The notes under the pieces were generated by a model. It was not told the origin of the DNA. It did not search any database and was given only the letters and a program-made list of their open reading frames with translations. A stretch of 48,547 bases of DNA, taken from positions 1 through 48,547 of the forward strand of contig JAHLJZ010000129.1 in assembly GCA_025602915.1 (NCBI GenBank), in the 5' to 3' direction. Shown here in pieces: positions 6,142 to 31,953 of the stretch. A program made the position numbers and the translations under genes. Position 1 is the first letter of the stretch, and the number at the start of each line of letters is the position of its first letter. This DNA comes from Paraphysoderma sedebokerense (Eukaryota; Blastocladiomycota; Physodermatomycetes; Physodermatales; Physodermataceae).

Positions 6142-7289
6142 GGCTTATTTATGATAGAAGCACGGTATGTAACAGTGACGGAAGGATTTTTTGTGTAATA
6201 ATGAGAGCAGATAGTGAGCAGATTTACAAGAAGGATAGAAGGAGGATTGTCACTGGAATCGAGAGTCGCGTCTCACTCCGCGTCTTTCTCGATTTACCAA
6301 AATGTCTGCCAATTACGAAATCCCAGCGCTGCTGTATTGCAGGAACTATAATATAAGTAAACGTATCCTGTCCTTTATCAAATTGTGAAAAAATAAAGGA
6401 ATATGAAGGTGACCTCGTACAAAGAAATCATAATTTTGCTACGTAGCATGCTAAAAACAGGTTACAGCAATTGGAATACAACAGCTATACTTTGGAAAGC
6501 GGTATTTATTCTCTTTTTCGTACATAAAAATTGTATCAGACTACAGTTATGTTATTTGCGTGCTTTAATTTTTATTTCATATGTAAGAGGTATGTAAATT
6601 CAGTATGTAGTGATAGTTAAAACGTATTGTCTTAACGAAGTTGCGTATGTCCGTACTCGTTACTGATTCGTTATCACGTGTGCTTTGGCTTCCTTGCCTA
6701 GTTAGAGGGTAATCCGATCAGCAAAGCGAATGAAGCATGGCGAAATCGTTCTGCTTGACATCACACATGAATTCGTAATAATCGGAACGATGTCGGATGC
6801 ACTGAAGAGGGCACATGAATGTACAGCTCCGGGTCATCGTATTCGCCGTTGCAGTTACTCTGGCCGTTACTTGCATATCCTACACTATATAGACTGATAT
6901 ATACCATATCACATACATTGTCAGTGAGTGTCAGAGTATTCAGGGAAGATGTGGAGTTGAATCTGCAATTGATCCGTTTTGGGAATTGGTAGCTATCGCC
7001 ATAATATAATAGCGTACACAAGATATCATACCAGAATCTGATTCCAGTATGTTGTCCTAAAATTGACAAAAACTGTGATTTTTAGTAATATCCTCCCTAT
7101 ACATATTAACCGAATCTTCTTCCCACCAAAAGTGTTCCGCTTCCCGAAGGCAGTGCACAATAGTCCATTGTCCTCGTATTTGCCCATGCTTCAGGCGGCA
7201 AACTCTAAAAAAAGGGACAAGGAAGCCATCCAAAATCCGACAACATCCTATATTTACCGTTCTAAGCCGTCTTAGGTTCTACCCGGTTC
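6142..7289. promoter_or_regulatory. Divergent intergenic region between kinase and STRA6-like gene
   Basis: The kinase is read leftward from 6141 and the STRA6-like gene rightward from 7290, so both promoters should lie in this 1.15 kb. I could not pick out a definite TATA box or operator. A minus-strand frame at 6761-7069 starts only with a TTG codon, has no known motif and is not called. Confidence 0.4.
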
Positions 7290-9788
7290 ATGATGCCCAC
7301 ATTACAGGTCGTATGGGTGCTCTTGGTTTTTCTGAGCTTTAAGTTGGTGACTTCCGATCAGCAGCACCTGGCTTGCATCAATTCACTTCAGAAGGACCAA
7401 AATCTAATCCGAAACACCAACTGCATCATACCTCAAGGCCAGTGGTCGTTCGAACCGGCAACATGGCAGAACCTTCCATCAGTAATTTATTCTTTTTCTG
7501 GTTGCTGTCTACCGACTCCTCAGTCCCTGAATATCACAACGATAGCCAAGGTGCTTGTTTCGGGATCCCCGCTGGTGCAAACTTTGCCGACGGATAGTTT
7601 GAAACCCTACATCGATGATATTGACAAAGGAATAGCAGATTTGCAGCTCTCTATCGCCTTCACTCCTCTTGTTCTGTTACTTGGAAGTGGATTTGTCGTA
7701 GACCTAGCTTTTTTCGACATGGACCAACGGATTCTTGCGTTCAGCAACTCTACTTCCTACCAGGGGGTCTTGCAGATTTCCAATCCTGAAGATTCATCAG
7801 ATATAGTACTCCAGCCACCCACATCGAAAATTTTCAACCCTGTCAGAATTCCCGCCACCACTAGGTCAATCTCGCTCTCGGTATATTCCAGTGCCAATAT
7901 GTCAATCTGCTTCAATACGTTTTTGGCAAAGATCAAAGTGCCCCCTGAAGAAACCGAAATCGTAAAGGCAGCAGGAAATATCAGGTTGAACTTAGCTTAT
8001 GTCTGCATTGTTAATGTTGTTGCGATTCCTCTGCTTCTGTTCCTTCGACATCCGAAAGCCAGATTTCCTATTCCGATTAATCTTATTCAAAGAACACAAA
8101 ATCGGCCCCTCCAAATTGTTCTTTTTATTTCGTGTTCCAATTGGTTATTCACGAGCTCCCTCGATATTGTTAACGGCACAGCCACCGAGTTATCAGCATT
8201 TTTGGCCCCCGAACAAGTAGTGTGGTTTAGAATGTTCATATTCGTGGTTATCTTTCTTATTGGAGCGATGCTTTATTGGCCGTTGTTTTTGTGCTATGAC
8301 CAAAGTAACACGCTATGGGGAAGTTTCCTGGGGTTGTATTCCAGTATTGCGATATTAGCATTCAGAATCGTAGCCTTCATTTATCAACTCGATCTTAGCT
8401 TTTCGACTTTGGCGGCAATTGAAATGTTGACTCGAATTCCCGAAGTGATTTCATTAGTTATTTTGATTCTGTATTTTACACGAGCGTGGTTTGTCACCAG
8501 GCGAGGCAAATCGAAACCTCTAAACGAGGTGGTGGAGTGGTTAAACCGTCACGAGTATGTAAGATCTTTGTTGTCCAACACAGAGTATTCTCAGTCATAT
8601 ACAGTGAACCGATTCCCTCGGTCATTCGAACATCTCAAAGAACAGTTCTTTCGAATATCCGGAATTAATCCGCGCATTCATTACCCTTCTAAATTGCTCA
8701 TCATGGTCGTACTCAAAATCACCTTTCTCTATCAACTGGGATTGCTGATTCTCCGTTTTTTCTTCGGCCGATACGGGATCTCTACTGCATGTACTATTTC
8801 TGCACTGGTTCGATCTCGACAGTCCGATGTGATTTCAATGGCGGAAACATTATACTCAGCTCTCCTTGGATGTTTTCTGTGGGCCTCTGTCGGAGGATTT
8901 ATTTTTTGTTCGCTGCTATCATTTAATATCTTTGGAGAGTACGCTGCCGACTCTCAGCGAATTCGGCGCGGGAATTATGATTTCATTCCATCGAATATCC
9001 GCCGCTTATTGAATCTAGACTCTCACATTCGTTTCATCGGATACGGAGTTGGATACGGGTTATTGGGTGGACTGTGTGTTATGTTAGAAATGTTGGTCAC
9101 CGCAATATTCATCGTTGTGCTGTCCTACGTTCCGCTTTTACGTAGTCAAATCTGGTCAGCCCTCCAAAATGGTGCTATCTTGGTACCTTTTGCAATCACT
9201 CTTGCAATCCGTTACACGCAATCGTTCGTCACTCAGTACATTTTCGTGTCCCGGGCGGGTCCTAATCAGTTCCAATCTCAATTTTTGCTGAAACCGTCTA
9301 AGCGGTTAAGATCGATATTCTGGCAATACAATTATCTGATCACCTTTACGGATATAGTGCAAGGCGTTACTTCATTCCTATTCAGATTGGTGTTGGCAGT
9401 CACCAGCAACGCTTTGTACAGTTTGAATATTGACGATTCGATATTGGCCAAAGGCCTACGAAGTTGGGATGCAGGATATATTTCTTATTTATCATTAGTA
9501 GTCGGAGAGCACATTTACGGAAATGAAATCATGATTGCGTTTATTGGGGTATTGAAGGAGTCGGTGGAAGATTCTCATGGATTTGCAGTTTCCTCTGGCG
9601 AAAAGGTTAAAAGCGGGGACCGAAAGTTTGAGATTGAGATAGAAAATTCGGAAAACCAGTCAAAGAGAAGTTATTATTTAAGAAATAGGAGAGCTTTTAA
9701 CAAATGGTTGGTGAGTTATACGTTGTTGAAGAACCCGGGGTTGATAAGGCAAAGGAAACGGATGGTCGGAGCGACTCAACCGAAATGA
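7290..9788 (+). CDS. STRA6-like multi-pass membrane protein
   Basis: A single 832-codon exon opens with ATGATG. Residues 1-22 look like a signal peptide. They are followed by a Cys-bearing extracellular domain of about 200 residues, then about nine membrane segments from residue 230 on. The C-terminal third resembles the animal retinol transporter/receptor STRA6 (RBP receptor family) as I know it: an RRGNYDFIP loop, WQYNYLITFTDIVQG, a RSWDAGYISYL segment like STRA6 FDPGY..Y, and an ending RNRRAFNKWLVSYTLLKNP, which parallels the STRA6 NRR...YTLL.NP tail. In animals the family moves retinol across the plasma membrane. Substrate here is unknown, and no retinol-binding protein partner is visible. 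It is intronless, unlike nearly all neighbours. Family call moderately confident; function inferred only. Confidence 0.7.
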   Translation: MMPTLQVVWVLLVFLSFKLVTSDQQHLACINSLQKDQNLIRNTNCIIPQGQWSFEPATWQNLPSVIYSFSGCCLPTPQSLNITTIAKVLVSGSPLVQTLPTDSLKPYIDDIDKGIADLQLSIAFTPLVLLLGSGFVVDLAFFDMDQRILAFSNSTSYQGVLQISNPEDSSDIVLQPPTSKIFNPVRIPATTRSISLSVYSSANMSICFNTFLAKIKVPPEETEIVKAAGNIRLNLAYVCIVNVVAIPLLLFLRHPKARFPIPINLIQRTQNRPLQIVLFISCSNWLFTSSLDIVNGTATELSAFLAPEQVVWFRMFIFVVIFLIGAMLYWPLFLCYDQSNTLWGSFLGLYSSIAILAFRIVAFIYQLDLSFSTLAAIEMLTRIPEVISLVILILYFTRAWFVTRRGKSKPLNEVVEWLNRHEYVRSLLSNTEYSQSYTVNRFPRSFEHLKEQFFRISGINPRIHYPSKLLIMVVLKITFLYQLGLLILRFFFGRYGISTACTISALVRSRQSDVISMAETLYSALLGCFLWASVGGFIFCSLLSFNIFGEYAADSQRIRRGNYDFIPSNIRRLLNLDSHIRFIGYGVGYGLLGGLCVMLEMLVTAIFIVVLSYVPLLRSQIWSALQNGAILVPFAITLAIRYTQSFVTQYIFVSRAGPNQFQSQFLLKPSKRLRSIFWQYNYLITFTDIVQGVTSFLFRLVLAVTSNALYSLNIDDSILAKGLRSWDAGYISYLSLVVGEHIYGNEIMIAFIGVLKESVEDSHGFAVSSGEKVKSGDRKFEIEIENSENQSKRSYYLRNRRAFNKWLVSYTLLKNPGLIRQRKRMVGATQPK

Positions 9789-13580: not shown

Positions 13581-15635
13581 ATGTATGTTGCACAAGACAC
13601 TTTACTTTTCCTAGGTTTTCCCTCTCATGTCTGGTCCTTTGTGTTGTTAATAACCCTCTCCAACCGCCTTTAGTCATCTACCCATCATCCGCCAATCCCC
13701 TCACCTTCGATTCCCACACATTCCGACACTTGATTAAGCGACAGGAACCAACATCAAAACCCACAGCATGTCCAGACAATCTCGGACAATCTCCCAGTCC
13801 TTACTTTGGCACTATCCTCGATTGGTCCAACGACTCACCGGACCGATATGTTTCATTGTTGGGACGAACTCCTTCGGTTTTCGGTTCGTTCCTCCGAATA
13901 GGAAATAAATTCGAAGATCAAGAAATGATGAGACACTTAAAATTGATTTCTAATGTCGTTAAAACTGCCACAGTAAAAGATCAAGACGGAAACGACGTCC
14001 AGACTTCCATTAAACCAATGTATGCCTTGTCTGTTGACCCGGTGGATAAATTCGATGGGATATCCGATGCTGCTATGACAGTTCTGGCTAATTTATGTCT
14101 GAAAGCACATCAGGATGGTATATTTGTAGTTATTCGATTCGGTATGTACCACTTAGAAAATTTTTTCAAAGACCAACAGTTCTAGGTTGAGTGCTGAGGT
14201 TAAATTTGTTGTTTTTCCAACAACGACTGTGAGCTTTTTGATATTGATTATATATGCTGACATCAATGTTTTCTTTGTTATTTGGTAAATTTCAGCTCAC
14301 GAAATGAACGGAGAATGGTACACCTGGTACGTTTTTTGAAGCATTTTTCTTTTTTTCGGCCTGATATGATTCAAATTCCGTATGGTCAAAAATATTTCCT
14401 TTGCTTTGTACTCGGTGGTATCGAGCACACACAATGTGTGCTGATTTTTACCATCATTTGGCTTATTCACACTTGTTCCCCGTACAATCTCATATGACTG
14501 ACCTATTTTCATTTGTTGCTATATCGTCCTTGACTCCTGATTATGCGCTGCGCTTATTGCATGTTTATGTCCATTTTCAATTTTCCCCTCGTATTGAAAT
14601 GTTATCGTCCGCCGTCGACTCTACTCCTTCACCGAAACTTCGCTCAAAAACAGGGGCCTACAACCGCAAGCCTTCATCGAGACTTACCGCCGTCTCTACA
14701 CCACTGTTAAAACAATTTCTCCTGCCACAAATTTCATTTGGGCTCCGAATATATATCCTGGCGGCAGTAATGGGACGACTTACTCCACTTATTACCCTGG
14801 CGACTCCTACATTGACTGGGTCGGTTTATCGTATTACCATTTTGGCGCAACATGGCCTCCAGTCAATTCTCTTGCACCCCCGAATAAGTTGACTGGCGGT
14901 ATAACAGGCACACTGTACCCTACGGACACCGACCCCGCCTTGAACTTTTACCGTATCTACTCTCAAGAGAAAAATAAGCCATTTGTCATTGCCGAAACCG
15001 GTGCACCTGCGTACTCTGATCGTACGAAAGAACCCGCAGATTTAGCCGAAATCAATCAAAAGAGATCATGGTGGACCCAGGTTTACAACACTACCGTCTT
15101 CTCTCAATTTCCTAATCTCAAGATGATTTTATGGTTCGAGTACACCAAGCGAGAAGTGTTTGGAGCCAATGGCGACCATCGGGTGGTGATGTCTCCCAAC
15201 GCAGAAATTAGGGAGGCCTTTAAAAGAGATTTACCGGTGGACAGTCTTACCTTTAACGAAAATCGAATAGCCTGTGGTACAAAAGCCGGTGCTGGTCTGA
15301 GTGTTTGGGTGTGGGTGGGTGTAGCGATTGGTTTGGTGGTTGTTCCGGCTATTGTCGTTTCCATTTATCGATTACGAATTTCGAGAAACAAAAAACGAAA
15401 CTTGGCACATAGTGTAAACTCTTCGAACGGTACCTTGAGTCCTCACCAGCACATATATGGTGTACATGCTGCCGATATGATGACTGATGAGAAAAAGATG
15501 GCCAATCGAGGAAGTGTGATCAACGGTGTGGGAATGGATAGTTTTGCTGAATCGGATTTAGGCGGGGATTCGTTTGAAGAGAGTCCAGATGAAGATGAGG
15601 AAGAGTATAAAGGTGTTCCGGAGAAACAACAGTAA
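13581..15635 (+). CDS. Membrane-anchored GH26-like glycoside hydrolase (β-mannanase family)
   Basis: Exons 13581-13614, 13674-14141, 14296-14326 and 14654-15635 give 504 residues in frame. The N-terminus is hydrophobic (likely secretory signal) but the first exon and its GTTTTC donor are the weak part of the model. The catalytic domain shows AHEMNGEWYTW, with the probable acid/base Glu170, the GH26/clan A strand FIWAPN, a WVGLSYY strand, and FVIAETGAP with the probable nucleophile Glu292. GH26 members mostly cleave β-1,4-mannan. A membrane segment follows at about 393-420, then a short basic stretch and an acidic cytoplasmic tail ending EEEYKGVPEKQQ. This puts the enzyme on the outer face of the plasma membrane or wall. 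Mannan as substrate is inferred from family only. Confidence 0.78.
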
Positions 15636-18096: not shown

Positions 18097-21000
18097 ATGG
18101 ACTCTACATATGCTGGGTCTCCTGGGACGAATCCGTATCCAACACAACCTCAACTTCAACCACAGTATCAAACTCGAACTCCTGCTCAATTGCAATCTGT
18201 GCCGGAAATTCAACCTCCACAACAATCTTACCAGCAAACTCCAAAGGAAATAAAGCGACAATCATTTAAGAATCCGTCGCAGCCGCTACAACCTCCAACA
18301 AGCACAACCTTGTCAAGGACTCTTTCTACTAAATCTCGTCTCCTCCATTTTCGACATCGATTGGACTACATCGATGGTCTCAAATTCATTGCTAGTATAC
18401 TGTTGTTTAACTCTAGTTTCTTGAACTTGACCACGAAAGCTGGCTCCGGAATCGACATTAATTCGCCCCTGTACTTTATCAGGTATGAATTGAGTGTTTC
18501 TTTCGAACTTTCACCTATACTTGTTAGAAATGACTTAACTCATCGTCCCCCTTTGTTCAAACAGATCGTCGTCCTTCGCCCTTTCGTTCTTTTTCATCTT
18601 ATCTGGTCGTATCCTCACTTTCTCCTTCCTGTCGCCCTTGACTTCCTCAACATCTCAAATAAACTGGTCCCGAATTGCAAAATCCTTCGTCATTCGAGTT
18701 TTCCGTTTCCTGTTTCCCGTCTTGGTCGTGTCGATTTTACAATGGCAAATCGCTTCCAATGGATATACTGATGACGCTGGCAGAGTAAAAGAAAAATTAC
18801 TTGCCGAAACGGCCATGAGTAAACCCAATTGGGGTAGAATTTCTAAAGGATTAGATTGGTGGGTCTTGTTTGTCAACTTGGTATGTTCTCGCAATGCATA
18901 TACTCTTGTGTTTGTATTCGAATCTGACAATCGGTTCATTAGTTTTCCTGGGATAATGTTCGATATTTCGAAGACGTTGCTGGTTATCTGTGGCTCACTC
19001 CTTGGGCTCTTTGGGGTATTGTATCAGTTTTAATTGTCACTTCTTAGTTTATGCCAAGAGAGAATAACATTTGATCCATTTCGCAGCATCCTACTTTGTT
19101 TACTTTGTCTTCTCGGTATTGGCTCCACTATCTTCGAACAGAACAATTGGTTATGCATTCCTTTTAATTTTGAGTTGGGTTACCTATAGCTACAACTACG
19201 TAAGTGACTTGGGTTGGTTTGTTTTCATAAGTTTATTCAGGGGCTAACATTATTCGAAAATTCAAGACTGCTCTCGTTGGTCTCCTTGTAGCTGACCTCG
19301 CCTCCTCTGGCATCTTCCGCCGTGTCCGTAACTGGAAAATTCATGAACGTGTCATCTTCCAAGTTATCTGTTTGACTGTTGGTCTATTCATTCTCTTGGT
19401 TCGACCAGTCTCCAATGCTCTCGATACTGCATTCGCTAATATCCAGAGAAGCGGTATGCCTCAAATCCAATTCTCCGACACCCTTGCCGGATTTTGGATC
19501 CTGTTGTTTGTTGAATCTTCCCAGTTCACCCAATTGGTACTTGGAAATCCGATTTTCAGCTATCTTGGCCGAGTATGTAACCTTTCATCCATTTCTGCCT
19601 GCACAAGTGAAAAGAACTAACGATTGGTTTTAGCTTTCACTTGGTATTGTTTCTCTTCACTTGACCTATATGTACACCATCATTCCCATGTTGGCGTTGA
19701 ACACGGCCGTGGACGAAGCGACTCTTCCTTCTTCGTTCCTTCCCGCATCTTACTTTACCGTGTTTGCTGCCACACTTGTCACATCTGTGTTCTTCTTCTT
19801 CCTCGTTGAGCAACCATCCATTTTCCTCGGAAAATGGATCTGGAAAATGCTGTCCTCCGACAAACCGTTCTTGGAAGAACTCCGTCATTTTCCCACCGAT
19901 GTTCAACTGTACATGAGAAACCGAAAACGAAATCTCCAACGTTCAAAAAGTGTACGATCTGTTCGATCTTCCCGAAGCATTAGACGCAACAGTTCAATCC
20001 GTCACAAGAAGATTGGCGCCGATGATAGTAATTTGGATATCCACTTGCATGAACAACACCAATTCGAACGAGACAGTGAAATCGAAAACGGTTACGAAAG
20101 TGAATTGACAAACGACGCTGGTCCTTCTACCTTGACCAATGTGACTCCTTCTGCTAGTGGCTACACTTTGAATGCTAAAGTGGACGAAATCACTTCGGTC
20201 ACTGATGAAAAAAGATTGTCTATGGATCCTCTCGCTCTCTCCAAAGAATCGGACAAGATGTTACTGGATTCAAAAAAGAAGGTTGAAGAAAAAGATCAAA
20301 CCAAAGCTGCAAAACGATTGACCTACGTCGATGGATTAAGAGGTATTGCGGTGTCGATATTTTTTGCTCACCAATTTGCCGAATACACCTTCGCAAAGGT
20401 CTATCCTGATGTATTATCGGAAGGAACTTTCCAGTATATTTTGCGGTACATTACGATTACTTATTAGCTTTTGACCCGTTAATCTAACTGAAATTCTTTG
20501 AAACACCTCTAGTAACGGACAATTTGCCCTTGCCTTGCTCTTCCTCCTCTCTGGTCGTGTCACTCCTCTTAACTTCCTCCGTAAATTTGCGACATCTCCG
20601 TCCTTACTCACCACCGTTCCCAAATCGAAACAACCTCTCAAGAAATTTACTCCGCTCTCTGCCCCAGCCAATACCTACTTTGACTACATTCAGTCAATGT
20701 GGAGACGACTGTTGCAACTGGCTTTACCCGTTTTCGTTGTGATCATCATTCAATACAAAGTTTGCGACGACGGATTAACCGATGCAGCTGATCAAGCTGA
20801 ACAATTCTTGAGGAGCACGACCTTAAGAAAACCAAATTGGTGTTTAGTTGGTACCGAAGGCATTGGTGCATTTTTAGTTGATGTGGTACGTCTCTTTCAT
20901 TTTCTCCCTTGAAGTCGCTACGGATCGTGAAATTAATATTTTTTATAATCTTGTTTAGTTCTCCAACCGTAATCATAAATATGTTCTCGATCTTGGAAGT

Positions 21001-23766
21001 AACTTGTGGACTATCTACATCCAAATGTGGGGTACCATGTTTGCTTACATTTTGGCTATGATCGCTGTCTACATTCCTCGTCGACGACCTCTCTTTTACA
21101 CTGTTGTCGTTTTCTGGACCTGGTATACTTACAACTTCAACATGGTACGTTCAATTTTCCACCTTACATCTTCTATCTGTTCATTCTTTTCTAACTTTCT
21201 GTTTGGTTTTAGCTCTTCGCTGTTGGTGTTATCCTCGCCGACTTGGACATCACAGGACACTACAAGCGATTTTCATCTTCCAAATACACAAAGTGGTATA
21301 AATGTTTAGCCGTTGAAATCAGTTTGGTTATTCTATCGGTTAGCATTCTCACCAGCTACGTATTGGCCAATGCTTTGGATGATTTCGCTATGTGGGTTAC
21401 CGTCAGAGAAGGAGTCATCGGGTTTGCCCGCGAATTCCCTGTTGCGGTTTGTATTCTAGTAATGTATTTGCTTATCGATTGGATGGAAACATTGACTGTT
21501 TTGTTTGGTTTATACAGATGTACCCCTCTCGTTGGTTGCCTGCTGTTTTGGTTTTGTTGTGGCTTGATTTGAGTCCTGTTACCCAATGGTTCGTCGGTTC
21601 TTGGATCTTTAGAATCGTCGGAAAAGTAAGTTGTCCTTATTGCTACTTTTAATTTTGACATGTGGCCGCATGGAATTTGTGCTAATGTTTCGCTTTGTGC
21701 GCTTCAGGTCTCAACTGGTTTTTACTTGATGCACATGACTTTGGTTTTTGGATTGTTCCCAAAGATGTTCTTGTCTTTGAGAGAAACCAATAAGTACGTT
21801 TTTCTTTGTATGCAGTTTGCGTTTGCTGGAACGGGAACTGACATTACCATTTTTTTTTGAATTAGCGTTTGGAACACCTTGATCATTTCATTTGTTGTCA
21901 TTTACATCCTCTTGATCCCGATTTCCTACGCATTTTACTACCTTGTGGAGAAACTTGGTGCCAATGTAGCAGACTTCAGTTTCGCTTACCTCTTCGTGAA
22001 ACCTTCAACACACATCTCCAAGCTCCCAGCAAAATTGTTTACCTCACTCTCTGCTACCATTCCCCACCTTCCTTCCATCATCGCTGGATTCTTCAAGTCG
22101 AAATACGCATCGTTTAAAGCCATCTTTGAACGACCCAAAGGTAACCCAACCAGACCTCCCCACGATTACGGTATCCGTGAAAACGTTCTCCCCGAAGAAT
22201 TACATTCCACCTTCTGGGACTATGACCTTTCAGATGACAAAGACGCTATGAGAACTGAACGATTATTGAGATTCAATAGTTACCTTGCTCCTGCTCATTT
22301 CGTTGGTATTTTGGGAGTTGCTTTGACTTGGTTCTTCTTGAATCCTATTGGTCCTTACAATCCGGAACAAGTCTTAAATTTCGCCAGTTTATGGAGATCA
22401 ATGTAAGTTCATTTTTCTGTTATGAATTGTCTGATGACCCCTATTTTAATGTCTTGTTTGAAATCACTTTTAGTTGGCTTCTTTCAATTCCTTATGTCGT
22501 TATCACCTTTATTGGTTTCTCAACACCTCGTATCGCCAAGACTAAAGCCGAAATGGACAAACAACCTGTTCTCCGTCAATACGTTAGAAACTTCTACATC
22601 GCCATCGTCACACAAGGTAGCAATGAAGAAGCTGTACGAAGAGGTTACGAAAAAATGAAACCCTTGGCTAGATGTCACCCCAGTATTCGAGTCGTTGTGT
22701 TGACTGATGAACCTTATTCTTACCCTGATTTGGACAACTTTGTTTGCCCCAAGGCTTATAGAAGTGAAATGGGAAAAGCTAAACATAAGGCTAGAGCTTT
22801 GGATTATTTCAGAAAAGCTGCCGGTTTGACTCAATACGATTGGGTATTGCATATGGTATGTTCTGTTTGTATTTCCCGACGAGACTTGATGGTTGGTATT
22901 GATTATGTTGTCAACAAAAATAGGACGAAGAATCTACCATTGATGCCGCTTCACTTCGCCGTTGCTTTGATTTCATTCGTTACTCTCCCCATCATTTTGG
23001 TCAAGGTGTTATCCTTTACAATGCTTACTCTTACTGGTCCAATCCGTTCTTCACCGTCGCCGATGCTATCCGAGTTGGTGACGACTTGGCTCGTTTCAGT
23101 TTACAATACTTGATCTTCCAACGACCTACTTTCGGTGCTCATGGTTCTTTCTTGATGAACAACGGATTAGTAGAAAACACTGTCACCTGGGATTTTGGTA
23201 CACTTGCCGAAGATTTCGAGTTCAGCCATAAAGCATGGGAAATGGGATTCACTTGTGGTGCTATCCATGGTATCGTTCGTGAACAATCTCCAAGTACCAT
23301 CAGAGATTTCTTGAAACAACGTCGTCGATGGTATATGGGTATCAGAGATATCCAAGGATTGTATTATTTACCACAAATGGCTGTTAAACTATGGAGTACC
23401 GGTGTTTTCTGTTTGGTTGCCACTATTATCAATATCCCATTCTCCTTCTTGATTGATGGTAGCGCAACTCCTATGTGGTATGTACATTCGTCTTTCTACA
23501 CCATCAACTCCTACATGTGACTAATGGTTTAATTGGTATCTAGGATTGCCGTTTTGTCAAGTTTCTGTTTCGCTGTATTCTACTGGCTTTACCTCTGGGG
23601 TCTACTCTTCCAAGAACTGGATAGTGGAACACCATGGTGGAAAGTTATTATAAGAATGTTGCTGGGTGTAGTGTTACAACCCTTCTGTTCACTGGCTGAA
23701 GCTGCGGCTGTTGTATGGGCCATGGCGAGTGAAAATGTCGGTAAATTTGAGGTTATCAAAAAGTAA
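18097..23766 (+). CDS. Fusion of two acyltransferase-3 domains with an Egghead-like GT2 glycosyltransferase
   Basis: Fifteen exons (18097-18482, 18565-18880, 18943-19015, 19086-19199, 19267-19572, 19634-20445, 20513-20885, 20959-21144, 21213-21446, 21518-21625, 21708-21793, 21866-22401, 22474-22855, 22924-23477, 23544-23766) give 4,689 nt, 1,562 residues, with no frame break. Order: Gln/Pro-rich cytosolic start (1-85); acyltransferase-3 copy 1 (about 88-470); basic, Ser-rich and charged linker; acyltransferase-3 copy 2 (about 623-1040); linker; GT2 domain (about 1220-1562). Copy 2 has YVDGLRGIAVSIFFAH and FLLSGRV; copy 1 has YIDGLKFIASILLF and FILSGRI without the His. The GT2 part shows IAIVTQGS, DEEST (from 1305), AEDFEF (1400-1401 acidic pair), QRRRW (1436-1440) and C-terminal membrane helices, and closely matches the animal β-mannosyltransferase Egghead/BRE-3. 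Predicted role: make and O-acylate a glycan at a membrane. Substrates unknown. Confidence 0.88.
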
Positions 23767-30634: not shown

Positions 30635-31953
30635 TCAGAATTCATTACACCTCGAGTTCATTGGTTTTTGACAAAACCGAACTTTCAGTTGATTATCCAA
30701 GCTTAAAATGATGATCGGATTTAGCAACCACGACACTACGTTGGCCAAACCAAGAATAAAATCTGCAACTGGGGAGATTTTTGTATTTTGAATTGTTTCA
30801 AGCGTAAAACATATAGCTAAACCGAACCATCCTAATGAGAACAATTGATAGAATATGATAGGAACGTGAGCTAATATCAAGTGACTGCATAAGGTTTTCG
30901 ACGAACCTATGTAAAACTGCAACACCAAGACAGCTAATCTTTTAGTAAGTTTCAGTTGATAACGTAGTACATCTTGCTCAGTTGTACTTCTTTCCTTTAG
31001 ATTTTGACTTATGTTTAACTGGGTTTCAGATTGCTTTACATTATGATTGTCGGATTTGACGGAAGCGGTAGGGCCGATAGCAGCGGTCACTGCCCCCTTT
31101 CGAAGACCCCATTTAAATCCATTCAATGACGCAAATTTATAAATATTCCAATAAAAAAATGGAATTCCCGTCAACGCGGTCCATAAAAGAATATGCGCCA
31201 TTATTGTGAACGGCAAGTGTTCCGTATTCTGGTTTGTTAAAACGGGGAAACACCAAGTTTGCGAAGGTCGTTGCTCGTAATAAGAGCCATTGAATAAAGG
31301 TACCGAAGACATAATTACTAGAAACAACCAAATTATTCCTGTTGCTGCAACGATTTGATTCCGCTGAAAAGTTTTTGAATGCACAATTTGGATGTACCGC
31401 TCCGCACTCAAGAATAGTGCGAATACTCCAGATGTACCTATTCATGGTTAATTAAGAATTTCTGTTGAAACAAAGACACGAAAATTTAAAACTCACTGGC
31501 ACCGAGAGTAATCATCATTCCACTATACTGGCACCATTCCCAGGTAAGTTCAGATGAAATCGTGTGCAAAATGCTAGTAAGGCTGAGACAGCAACTGGAC
31601 AAGAAGTCACCCAAACATATGCTAGTTAATATCAAATACCCGTTTTTCAGTTTGCTTCGGTTGGCATAGAATCTGTATAAGAGAAATCCGTTCAATAAGA
31701 CGGCAATAGTGCATATAACAAGTAACGTTGATTTAGCGTAATTAAACTCTGGAGAAATTCTCCAGGCATTACTAAGAATGTCTGGCTTCTGTCTCATGGA
31801 CATGTGCTTAAATTCAAGTAATGTAAAATAGCGACGTAGTATGTCCCACGGCAGCGAAAGAAAATATTGCCGCGACAAAGCGTAATGGGTGAAGGATTTC
31901 CCGCGTCTACTAACTACTGCGATCGATGGTGGCGTGAAAACACGATTCAACAT
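30635..31953 (-). CDS. Class A (rhodopsin-family)-like G protein-coupled receptor
   Basis: Two exons (31953-31497 and 31437-30635) join in frame to 419 residues with seven predicted membrane helices after a 74-residue N-terminus. Class A landmarks are present: Asn88 in TM1 (LLNG), Asp116 in TM2 (LGD), Cys141 at the top of TM3 and Cys215 in the second extracellular loop for the usual disulfide, ERY (165-167) at the end of TM3, Trp189 in TM4 and NPII (392-395) in TM7 in place of NPxxY. The third intracellular loop is long (about 260-315). The position that carries the retinal Lys in opsins is Val386, so it is not an opsin. The ligand and G protein partner are unknown. The protein should sit in the plasma membrane. 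Confidence 0.78.

Follow-up and report, generated by a model that had tools for sequence, protein, structure and literature searches.

Can a fungal membrane protein couple the transfer of a sugar to acylation? The question is raised by a gene on contig JAHLJZ010000129.1 of the blastocladiomycete Paraphysoderma sedebokerense (assembly GCA_025602915.1), of which the 48,547 nucleotides analysed are referred to here as the window. The gene appears to join two acyltransferase-3 (AT3) domains, AT3a and AT3b, to an Egghead-like glycosyltransferase family 2 (GT2) domain, and a sequence-only reading of the window had proposed a possible new acylated-glycan synthase. In the literature found, the AT3 enzymes described act on a glycan that other enzymes have made and that is acylated afterwards; a GT2 and an AT3 in one membrane chain offer a handle on whether fungi couple the two reactions. 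The answer favoured here, with about even confidence and on the strength of sequence comparison, is that a pseudo-AT3 (AT3a), AT3b and an Egghead-like GT2 form one polytopic protein, in which AT3b would acylate in most family members, this activity being lost or altered in the window copy.

In bacterial AT3 acetyltransferases, the R/K-X10-H motif of transmembrane helix (TMH) 1 and the RxxR motif of TMH3 are essential, and the OafA mutants R14A, H25A, R69A and R72A have <1% activity left (PMC7448272). AT3 is included in the TmAT superfamily (HGSNAT, GWT1/PIGW, CASD1/Cas1), which shares DxxR, FxxxxG, RxxR and the TMH9 Tyr (PMC12423673). The positions conserved near acyl-coenzyme A (acyl-CoA) in the wider superfamily are DxxR, FxxxxG, the first Arg of RxxR, a TMH6 Gly and the TMH9 Tyr, and the acyl-CoA path and the roles of DxxR-x10-H, RxxR and SxxxY have been described (PMC12423673). 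To these positions the window was compared in an alignment of ACYLTRANSFERASE domains comprising six AT3a rows, 24 AT3b or single-AT3 rows (window included) and two unfused AT3 open reading frames (ORFs) of the same genome, both of which contain every motif. The TMH1 Asp and Arg occur in all 24 AT3b or single rows (DGLR, residues 631-634, in the window). The X10 His is found in 22 of the 24, the exceptions being the window (Gln) and its paralogue C90a (Ser), and is thus kept in 22 of the 23 domains other than the window. The second Arg of RxxR is present in 23/24, the window (RxxQ) being the sole exception. The TMH9 Tyr occurs in 22/24, and the window retains both the Ser and the Tyr of SxxxY. 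At TMH2, the window keeps the Gly of FxxxxG and replaces the Phe by Leu, at a position that is Phe in 13 rows, Tyr in eight and Leu in three (the window and two Quaeritorhiza rows). In a leave-one-out comparison of conserved columns, the window AT3b departs at 4/40, the His and the RxxR Arg being two of the four; C90a departs at 4/40 (one of them the His) and C90c at 0/38, within a range of 0-8 for the 24 rows. A wider scan gave the same picture for the His, which stands at X10 in 32 homologues out of the 35 whose TMH1 could be read (exceptions P0001, from the window, P0004, from C90a, and P0034). Within P. sedebokerense, the AT3b His is lost in two of five copies and retained in C90b, C90c and C41. 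P0034 is a smut-like single-AT3 fusion with Asn at the canonical His position; HGSNAT is described as having an Asn along TMH1 at the place of the AT3 His (PMC12423673).

A Pfam search of the whole chain, suggested as a check in the sequence-only reading, matched both Acyl_transf_3 (PF01757; E 1e-10; 41.7 bits, above the 31-bit cut-off; two stretches, the best being residues 628-1022) and Glyco_trans_2_3 (PF13632; E 1.6e-27; residues 1300-1509). Residues 1-504 searched alone gave no Acyl_transf_3 match at E<=1. Profile alignment with hhalign nevertheless pairs AT3a with AT3b (probability 100, E 7.6e-79), and by this homology AT3a is an AT3 domain. AT3a did not match the genome's two unfused AT3 ORFs, whereas AT3b did, with probability 95 (E 9.1e-9). 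In the window, TMH1 of AT3a reads DGLK...S with the X10 His missing, the TMH9 Tyr is Val, and RxxR is present. Across the AT3a rows, the basic TMH1 residue (R/K) and RxxR are each found in 6/6, the X10 His in 0/6 (Ser in five, Asn in one) and the TMH9 Tyr in 0/5 readable rows, the C41 row being unreadable there as its deposited model departs at that point. Because the X10 His is absent from all six aligned rows, AT3a is, on motif alignment, a consistently His-less AT3. Simple hydropathy yields nine segments for AT3a and about eight or nine for AT3b, against the ten TM helices expected of AT3. Thus, of the two AT3 domains first proposed, the AT3-AT3-GT2 order holds, while AT3a is degenerate and the window AT3b lacks the His and the second Arg of RxxR. 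Since the canonical His and one RxxR Arg are lost and nearly all other conserved positions are held, the window copy would most likely be a glycosyltransferase bearing two non-catalytic (or altered) AT3 domains, in which acylation is probably lost or altered.

It is doubtful that both AT3 domains are active and that the protein is a bifunctional acylated-glycan synthase. The Pfam score above cut-off is consistent with this, as is H644, which adjoins the canonical His place and might move there; 36/40 columns of the AT3b scaffold are conserved, and AT3a and AT3b both look constrained in the C90a/C90b pair. However, AT3a uniformly lacks the X10 His and, where readable, the TMH9 Tyr, and the R-X10-Q and RxxQ of the window AT3b fall at positions where a change to alanine leaves OafA inactive. 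The name 'acylated-glycan synthase' therefore suits the family better than the window protein.

For the GT2 part, the motifs and the Egghead type claimed in the sequence-only reading are borne out. The DEEST (1305), AEDFEF (1399) and QRRRW (1436) motifs are present and intact, and the PF13632 match supports an Egghead-type GT2. Measured against the same eight outgroups, mean identity is 63-66% for GT2 and 32-35% for AT3. This difference favours an alternative in which the AT3 domains give the GT2 product a route through the membrane or a scaffold, by translocation or positioning, with acyl transfer secondary or absent. The retention by AT3a of fold-defining features without the His, and the absence of the AT3b His from two of five P. 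sedebokerense copies and from P0034, point the same way. Nevertheless, the His in 32/35 homologues favours acyl transfer family-wide, and the scaffold alternative is considered unlikely.

The favoured reading requires a single chain. When the exons were re-spliced from explicit donor and acceptor strings, the ATG at 18097 and the stop at 23764-23766 (+ strand) were joined by 15 exons and 14 GT-AG introns (61-82 nt) into 4,689 nt encoding 1,562 residues with no internal stop, reproducing the exon number, length and unbroken frame reported from the sequence alone. One of the two junctions singled out there, 20445/20513, was exact; the other, 22401/22474, was off by one nucleotide, as the donor end is 22402 and the intron 22403-22473. 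The AT3a-AT3b-GT2 order is found on one strand at four further P. sedebokerense loci, and at 5/5 loci a single stop-free frame runs from the AT3a end into the AT3b start. Markov-sampled copies of the five linkers stayed open in 1, 24, 33, 31 and 0 cases per 2,000. Because the order recurs at four loci and the linker is open at all five, the arrangement is more than chance, and because the AT3-AT3 linker is one open frame throughout, AT3a, AT3b and GT2 are very probably one chain. The deposited models are inconsistent on this point. P0001, identical (100%) across 61% of the re-spliced chain, is 956 aa long and has its first Met at codon 20258 in the exon 6 linker, excluding AT3a; P0003 and P0004 likewise start at a linker Met. 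These starts favour two adjacent genes or transcripts, AT3a being separate and AT3b-GT2 starting at ATG 20258 as deposited. On the other hand, P0002 and P0005 are double-AT3 chains, Quaeritorhiza P0008 is deposited as one double-AT3 chain, and a linker open and joined to the AT3a end at every locus is improbable by chance; two genes are thus a rather remote prospect. At the C41 paralogue, a frame change was observed in the GT2 part (~C41:189033-190741), near C41:190085-190094, and its deposited protein differs from its counterparts both at TMH9 of AT3a and at the C-terminus; this copy may therefore be damaged, misannotated or misassembled.

Several points weigh against the favoured reading. 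P0001 omits AT3a, and transcripts may underlie that model. The ratios of nonsynonymous to synonymous change (pN/pS) of C90a versus C90b, at 0.39 across 87 codons of the linker, 0.19-0.34 in AT3a, 0.28 in AT3b and 0.06-0.07 in GT2, look like those of coding, constrained sequence, but they come from this single pair, with dS near or beyond saturation and 3/8 segments inestimable. The window AT3b has a His one residue ahead of the canonical place, and many relatives have both. GWT1/PIGW transfers acyl groups without the HGSNAT-type catalytic His (PMC12423673), so His loss is no proof of lost transfer. P0034 has no His at the canonical place, so that, by this comparison, the His is not strictly needed for keeping the family architecture. 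The mean identity of the window AT3b to the eight outgroups is 34.3%, with 32.1, 34.0 and 34.7% for the three paralogues taken in (C41 left out), and relaxed selection or overall decay of the window AT3b is not seen by this measure. A decaying copy becoming a pseudogene, as the loss of catalytic-type AT3b residues might suggest, is very improbable, as the 15 exons are open, the GT2 motifs are intact, the GT2 and AT3b identities to the eight outgroups equal those of the three paralogues, and the losses are focused on 4/40 conserved columns.

GT2 enzymes of this type draw on cytosolic nucleotide-sugars. In the mechanism proposed for the favoured reading, the GT2 would take its sugar from this source and add it in beta linkage, at the membrane, onto a glycan acceptor that is lipid-borne or growing. 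Acyl-CoA in the cytosol supplies the acyl groups that AT3 domains carry across the membrane (PMC9833829, PMC12423673). An intact AT3b (DxxR-X10-H, RxxR, TMH9 Tyr) would use cytosolic acyl-CoA to send an acyl group (probably acetyl) through its pore, and in most family members this group would reach the GT2 product on the opposite side. Sugar transfer and acylation would then take place at one shared site in members with an intact AT3b. AT3a would most likely be a conserved non-catalytic AT3 with a scaffolding role or a regulatory one based on acyl-CoA binding, because the basic TMH1 residue at the CoA end and RxxR are kept and the His (and the readable Tyr) lost. The window copy would perhaps act beside the paralogues C90b, C90c and C41. 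A more specific proposal, entertained as a speculative and rather unlikely one, is that AT3a is an acyl-CoA-binding regulatory pseudoenzyme tying a surface glycosyltransferase to the cytosolic acyl-CoA pool, with both window AT3 domains in that role. If true, the GT2 would carry a tandem pseudo-acyltransferase sensor, and the double-AT3 design is one that two fungi of different phyla, both parasitic on the same alga, have in common. As one genome holds His-keeping and His-less AT3b copies behind a conserved His-less AT3a, the roles of the domains can be tested by comparison.

Table 1. Coordinates of the gene, its parts, its paralogues and one neighbouring frame. Positions are those of the window unless a contig is named.
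Feature	Position	Strand	Basis or remark
Whole gene	18097..23766	+	Splice junctions and open frame; order repeated at 4 other loci; linker open
Exons 1-8	18097-18482, 18565-18880, 18943-19015, 19087-19199, 19267-19572, 19634-20445, 20513-20885, 20959-21144	+	
Exons 9-15	21213-21446, 21518-21625, 21708-21793, 21866-22402, 22474-22855, 22924-23477, 23544-23766	+	
AT3a, degenerate N-terminal AT3 domain, residues ~85-500	18349..19939	+	Homology and motif alignment
Charged linker AT3a to AT3b, within exon 6	19940..20317	+	Open frame at 5/5 loci, Markov sampling
AT3b, residues ~627-1045, Pfam best stretch 628-1022	20318..22007	+	Pfam, hhalign, motif alignment
AT3b TMH1 motif R634-X9-H644-Q645	20339..20374	+	His one residue early, Gln at canonical X10
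AT3b TMH3 motif RRLLQ (RxxQ for RxxR)	20703..20717	+	Q737 = CAA at 20715-20717
GT2 part, residues ~1111-1562: catalytic domain preceded by two TM segments and followed by C-terminal ones	22203..23763	+	TM by hydropathy only
DEEST motif, residues 1305-1309	22924..22938	+	D, E, E, S invariant in 62 aligned rows
AEDFEF motif, residues 1399-1404	23206..23223	+	E, D invariant in 62 aligned rows
QRRRW motif, residues 1436-1440	23317..23331	+	>=90% conserved in 62 aligned rows
C90a, C90b, C90c (L028-L030, C90:49667-71265)	~49.7-55.0, 59.7-64.9, 65.9-71.3 kb		AT3-AT3-GT2 genes in tandem
C41 paralogue (L031, C41:183001-193000)	~185.2-190.7 kb		AT3a-AT3b-GT2, one strand
GH26-like ORF, ~2.5 kb upstream of gene	14598-15632		Sub-threshold Pfam: 19.9 vs 20.2 bits

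The GT2 had been likened to Egghead, the animal GDP-mannose:glucosylceramide beta-1,4-mannosyltransferase, and BRE-3, which we take to be its worm counterpart. Both share PF13632, DEE, ED and QRRRW with the window GT2 but stand alone, without AT3; the one animal sequence compared here is a rotifer protein (P0150). Egghead converts glucosylceramide to mannosyl-glucosylceramide (PMC6202054). In a tree of 24 chosen GT2 rows, a 17-row fused clade that includes one unfused Rhizoclosmatium protein is split (100/100) from seven stand-alone GT2s, among which P0150, the only animal row and a long branch, is placed. The GT2 of P0150 is 52% identical to a stand-alone chytrid GT2, versus 45% to the fused one. 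Carrying beta-mannosyltransferase function over from animal Egghead is therefore weak on this phylogeny, because P0150 falls outside the fused clade, among stand-alone fungal GT2s. In the Rhodotorula beta-mannan literature, no gene link was found in the available text (including PMC10662464). The fungal membrane GT2s MoGT2, ZtGT2 and CPS1 need DxD and QxxRW for function (PMC6731526), and are likened to the window GT2 by description. The Egghead-like GT2s found in P. sedebokerense are those of the five loci (23 PF13632 matches, 20 of them compared as loci); of the other three matches, one lies in the C41 gene, and those on C20 and C52 are outside the comparison. Searched against the PDB by sequence, the AT3-GT2 profile was unmatched at E<=1, and the stand-alone GT2 profile yielded three matches, all weak (E 0.055-0.076) and all to bacterial cellulose synthase.

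The chain is not a single odd protein. A full-length search returned 41 proteins at E<=0.001, of which 35, including the window's own, contain Acyl_transf_3 and Glyco_trans_2_3 together. P. sedebokerense contributes five of the 35, that of the window included, and the others with a named source come from fungi that we take to be Chytridiomycota, Pucciniomycotina and Ustilaginomycotina. The domain-architecture check also suggested beforehand thus places the fusion in chytrids and in rust-group and smut-group fungi as well, so it is not unique. These fusions belong to the same AT3b-GT2 family as the window protein, with identities of mostly 37-50% across 53-69% of the chain; some carry the database name 'family 2 glycosyltransferase', others 'related to beta 1,4-mannosyltransferase (egghead protein)'. 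Those examined differ in having a single AT3, with the canonical His except in P0034 (Asn) and no AT3a seen. In a TMH1 motif scan of the 41 homologues, two AT3 starts were found only in P0002, P0005 and Quaeritorhiza haematococci P0008, although six of the 41 gave no TMH1 match and truncated or diverged double-AT3 members could be among these. A double AT3 was observed at five loci of P. sedebokerense and in a single deposited protein of Quaeritorhiza. With GT2 alone as query, an AT3 domain was found in two of the best 120 of 181 matches. A stand-alone AT3a was not found at E<=0.001 with residues 1-504 as query among the best 8,000 word-sharing candidates scored, a search that may have missed some relatives through its length window or through fast divergence. 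NCBIfam left P0001, P0002 and P0045 unmatched and gave P0150 only sub-threshold matches.

AT3 fusions to other domains occur in Eukarya (PMC9833829). In OafA and OafB of Salmonella and in OatA, as in the window, AT3 is joined in one chain to another domain that meets the glycan too; their partner is an extracytosolic SGNH domain, whereas that of the window is a GT2, and the window chain has no SGNH/GDSL match (Pfam, E<=1). In the available part of the TmAT description (PMC12423673), neither a GT2 partner nor a tandem AT3 is mentioned. The claim that the architecture is undescribed stands insofar as no paper describing a fungal AT3-GT2 fusion was found in a literature search that left most subscription articles outside, but it does not extend to the databases. 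As far as found, these are known domains in an architecture present in databases and apparently unstudied, and the pattern of catalytic loss is unexpected.

A bacterial origin of the fusion was considered and rejected on one genome scan, which gave two relatives on contigs of metagenome-assembled genomes (MAGs), both matching the GT2 part only. Two relatives in contigs of a viral collection (L040, L041) are stand-alone Egghead-like GT2 ORFs with no AT3 by eye. The cyanobacterial MAG contig L038 holds a stand-alone Egghead-like GT2 (41% identity) with bacterial-looking neighbours and no AT3 by eye, and contig L041 has an additional GT2 ORF and ORFs resembling GH16 and GH26 by eye.

The AT3a domains of P. 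sedebokerense and Quaeritorhiza form one clade (100/99 with the outgroup, 100/100 without). Lineage-specific tandem duplication of AT3 in either fungus is rejected by approximately unbiased (AU) tests (p 0.00026 and 0.00068), in which branches are long and the Quaeritorhiza AT3a branch, from one deposited gene model, is very long. A P. sedebokerense plus Quaeritorhiza clade survives the AU test for GT2 (p 0.29) and AT3b (p 0.068). Because this clade is not rejected for either part, an ancient origin with losses and a transfer are indistinguishable. The two fungi belong to different phyla, and both parasitise Haematococcus pluvialis (PMC8480134, PMC4848535).

Nearby wall genes had been taken to fit a surface-glycan role. 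A chitin-deacetylase-type ORF (PF01522, E 3.3e-17) ~10 kb downstream of the gene and a GH16-type ORF (E 1.7e-10) ~12.5 kb downstream are indeed present, but the GH26-like ORF is sub-threshold, and this contig is absent among the matches listed in a six-frame GH26 search of the whole genome. The Pfam scan of neighbours took in 20 of the 26 non-overlapping ORFs of at least 130 aa outside the gene, short exons not being covered. It matched a kinase piece, a STRA6-like ORF, a PF03641 ORF, the sub-threshold GH26, an MTR4/DEAD helicase, a G protein-coupled receptor (GPCR), the deacetylase, GH16, kelch repeats and a GDSL lipase. The wall-type genes sit among unrelated genes, and no gene cluster is recognised among the ORFs scanned.

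Two neighbours are of separate interest. An 840-aa open frame at window positions 7266-9785 (+) matches PF14752 RBP_receptor (STRA6-like; E 2.9e-42), which is unexpected in a fungus. A match of equal score lies at C154:7047-8744, with weaker pieces on C7; because of the identical score, C154 may be a haplotig of part of the window contig. At 30638-31441 (-) lies a piece of a class A rhodopsin-family GPCR (PF00001, E 5e-10). The 27-Mb P. sedebokerense genome holds 44 matches to 7tm_1, exon pieces counted, which we consider a large number for a fungus.

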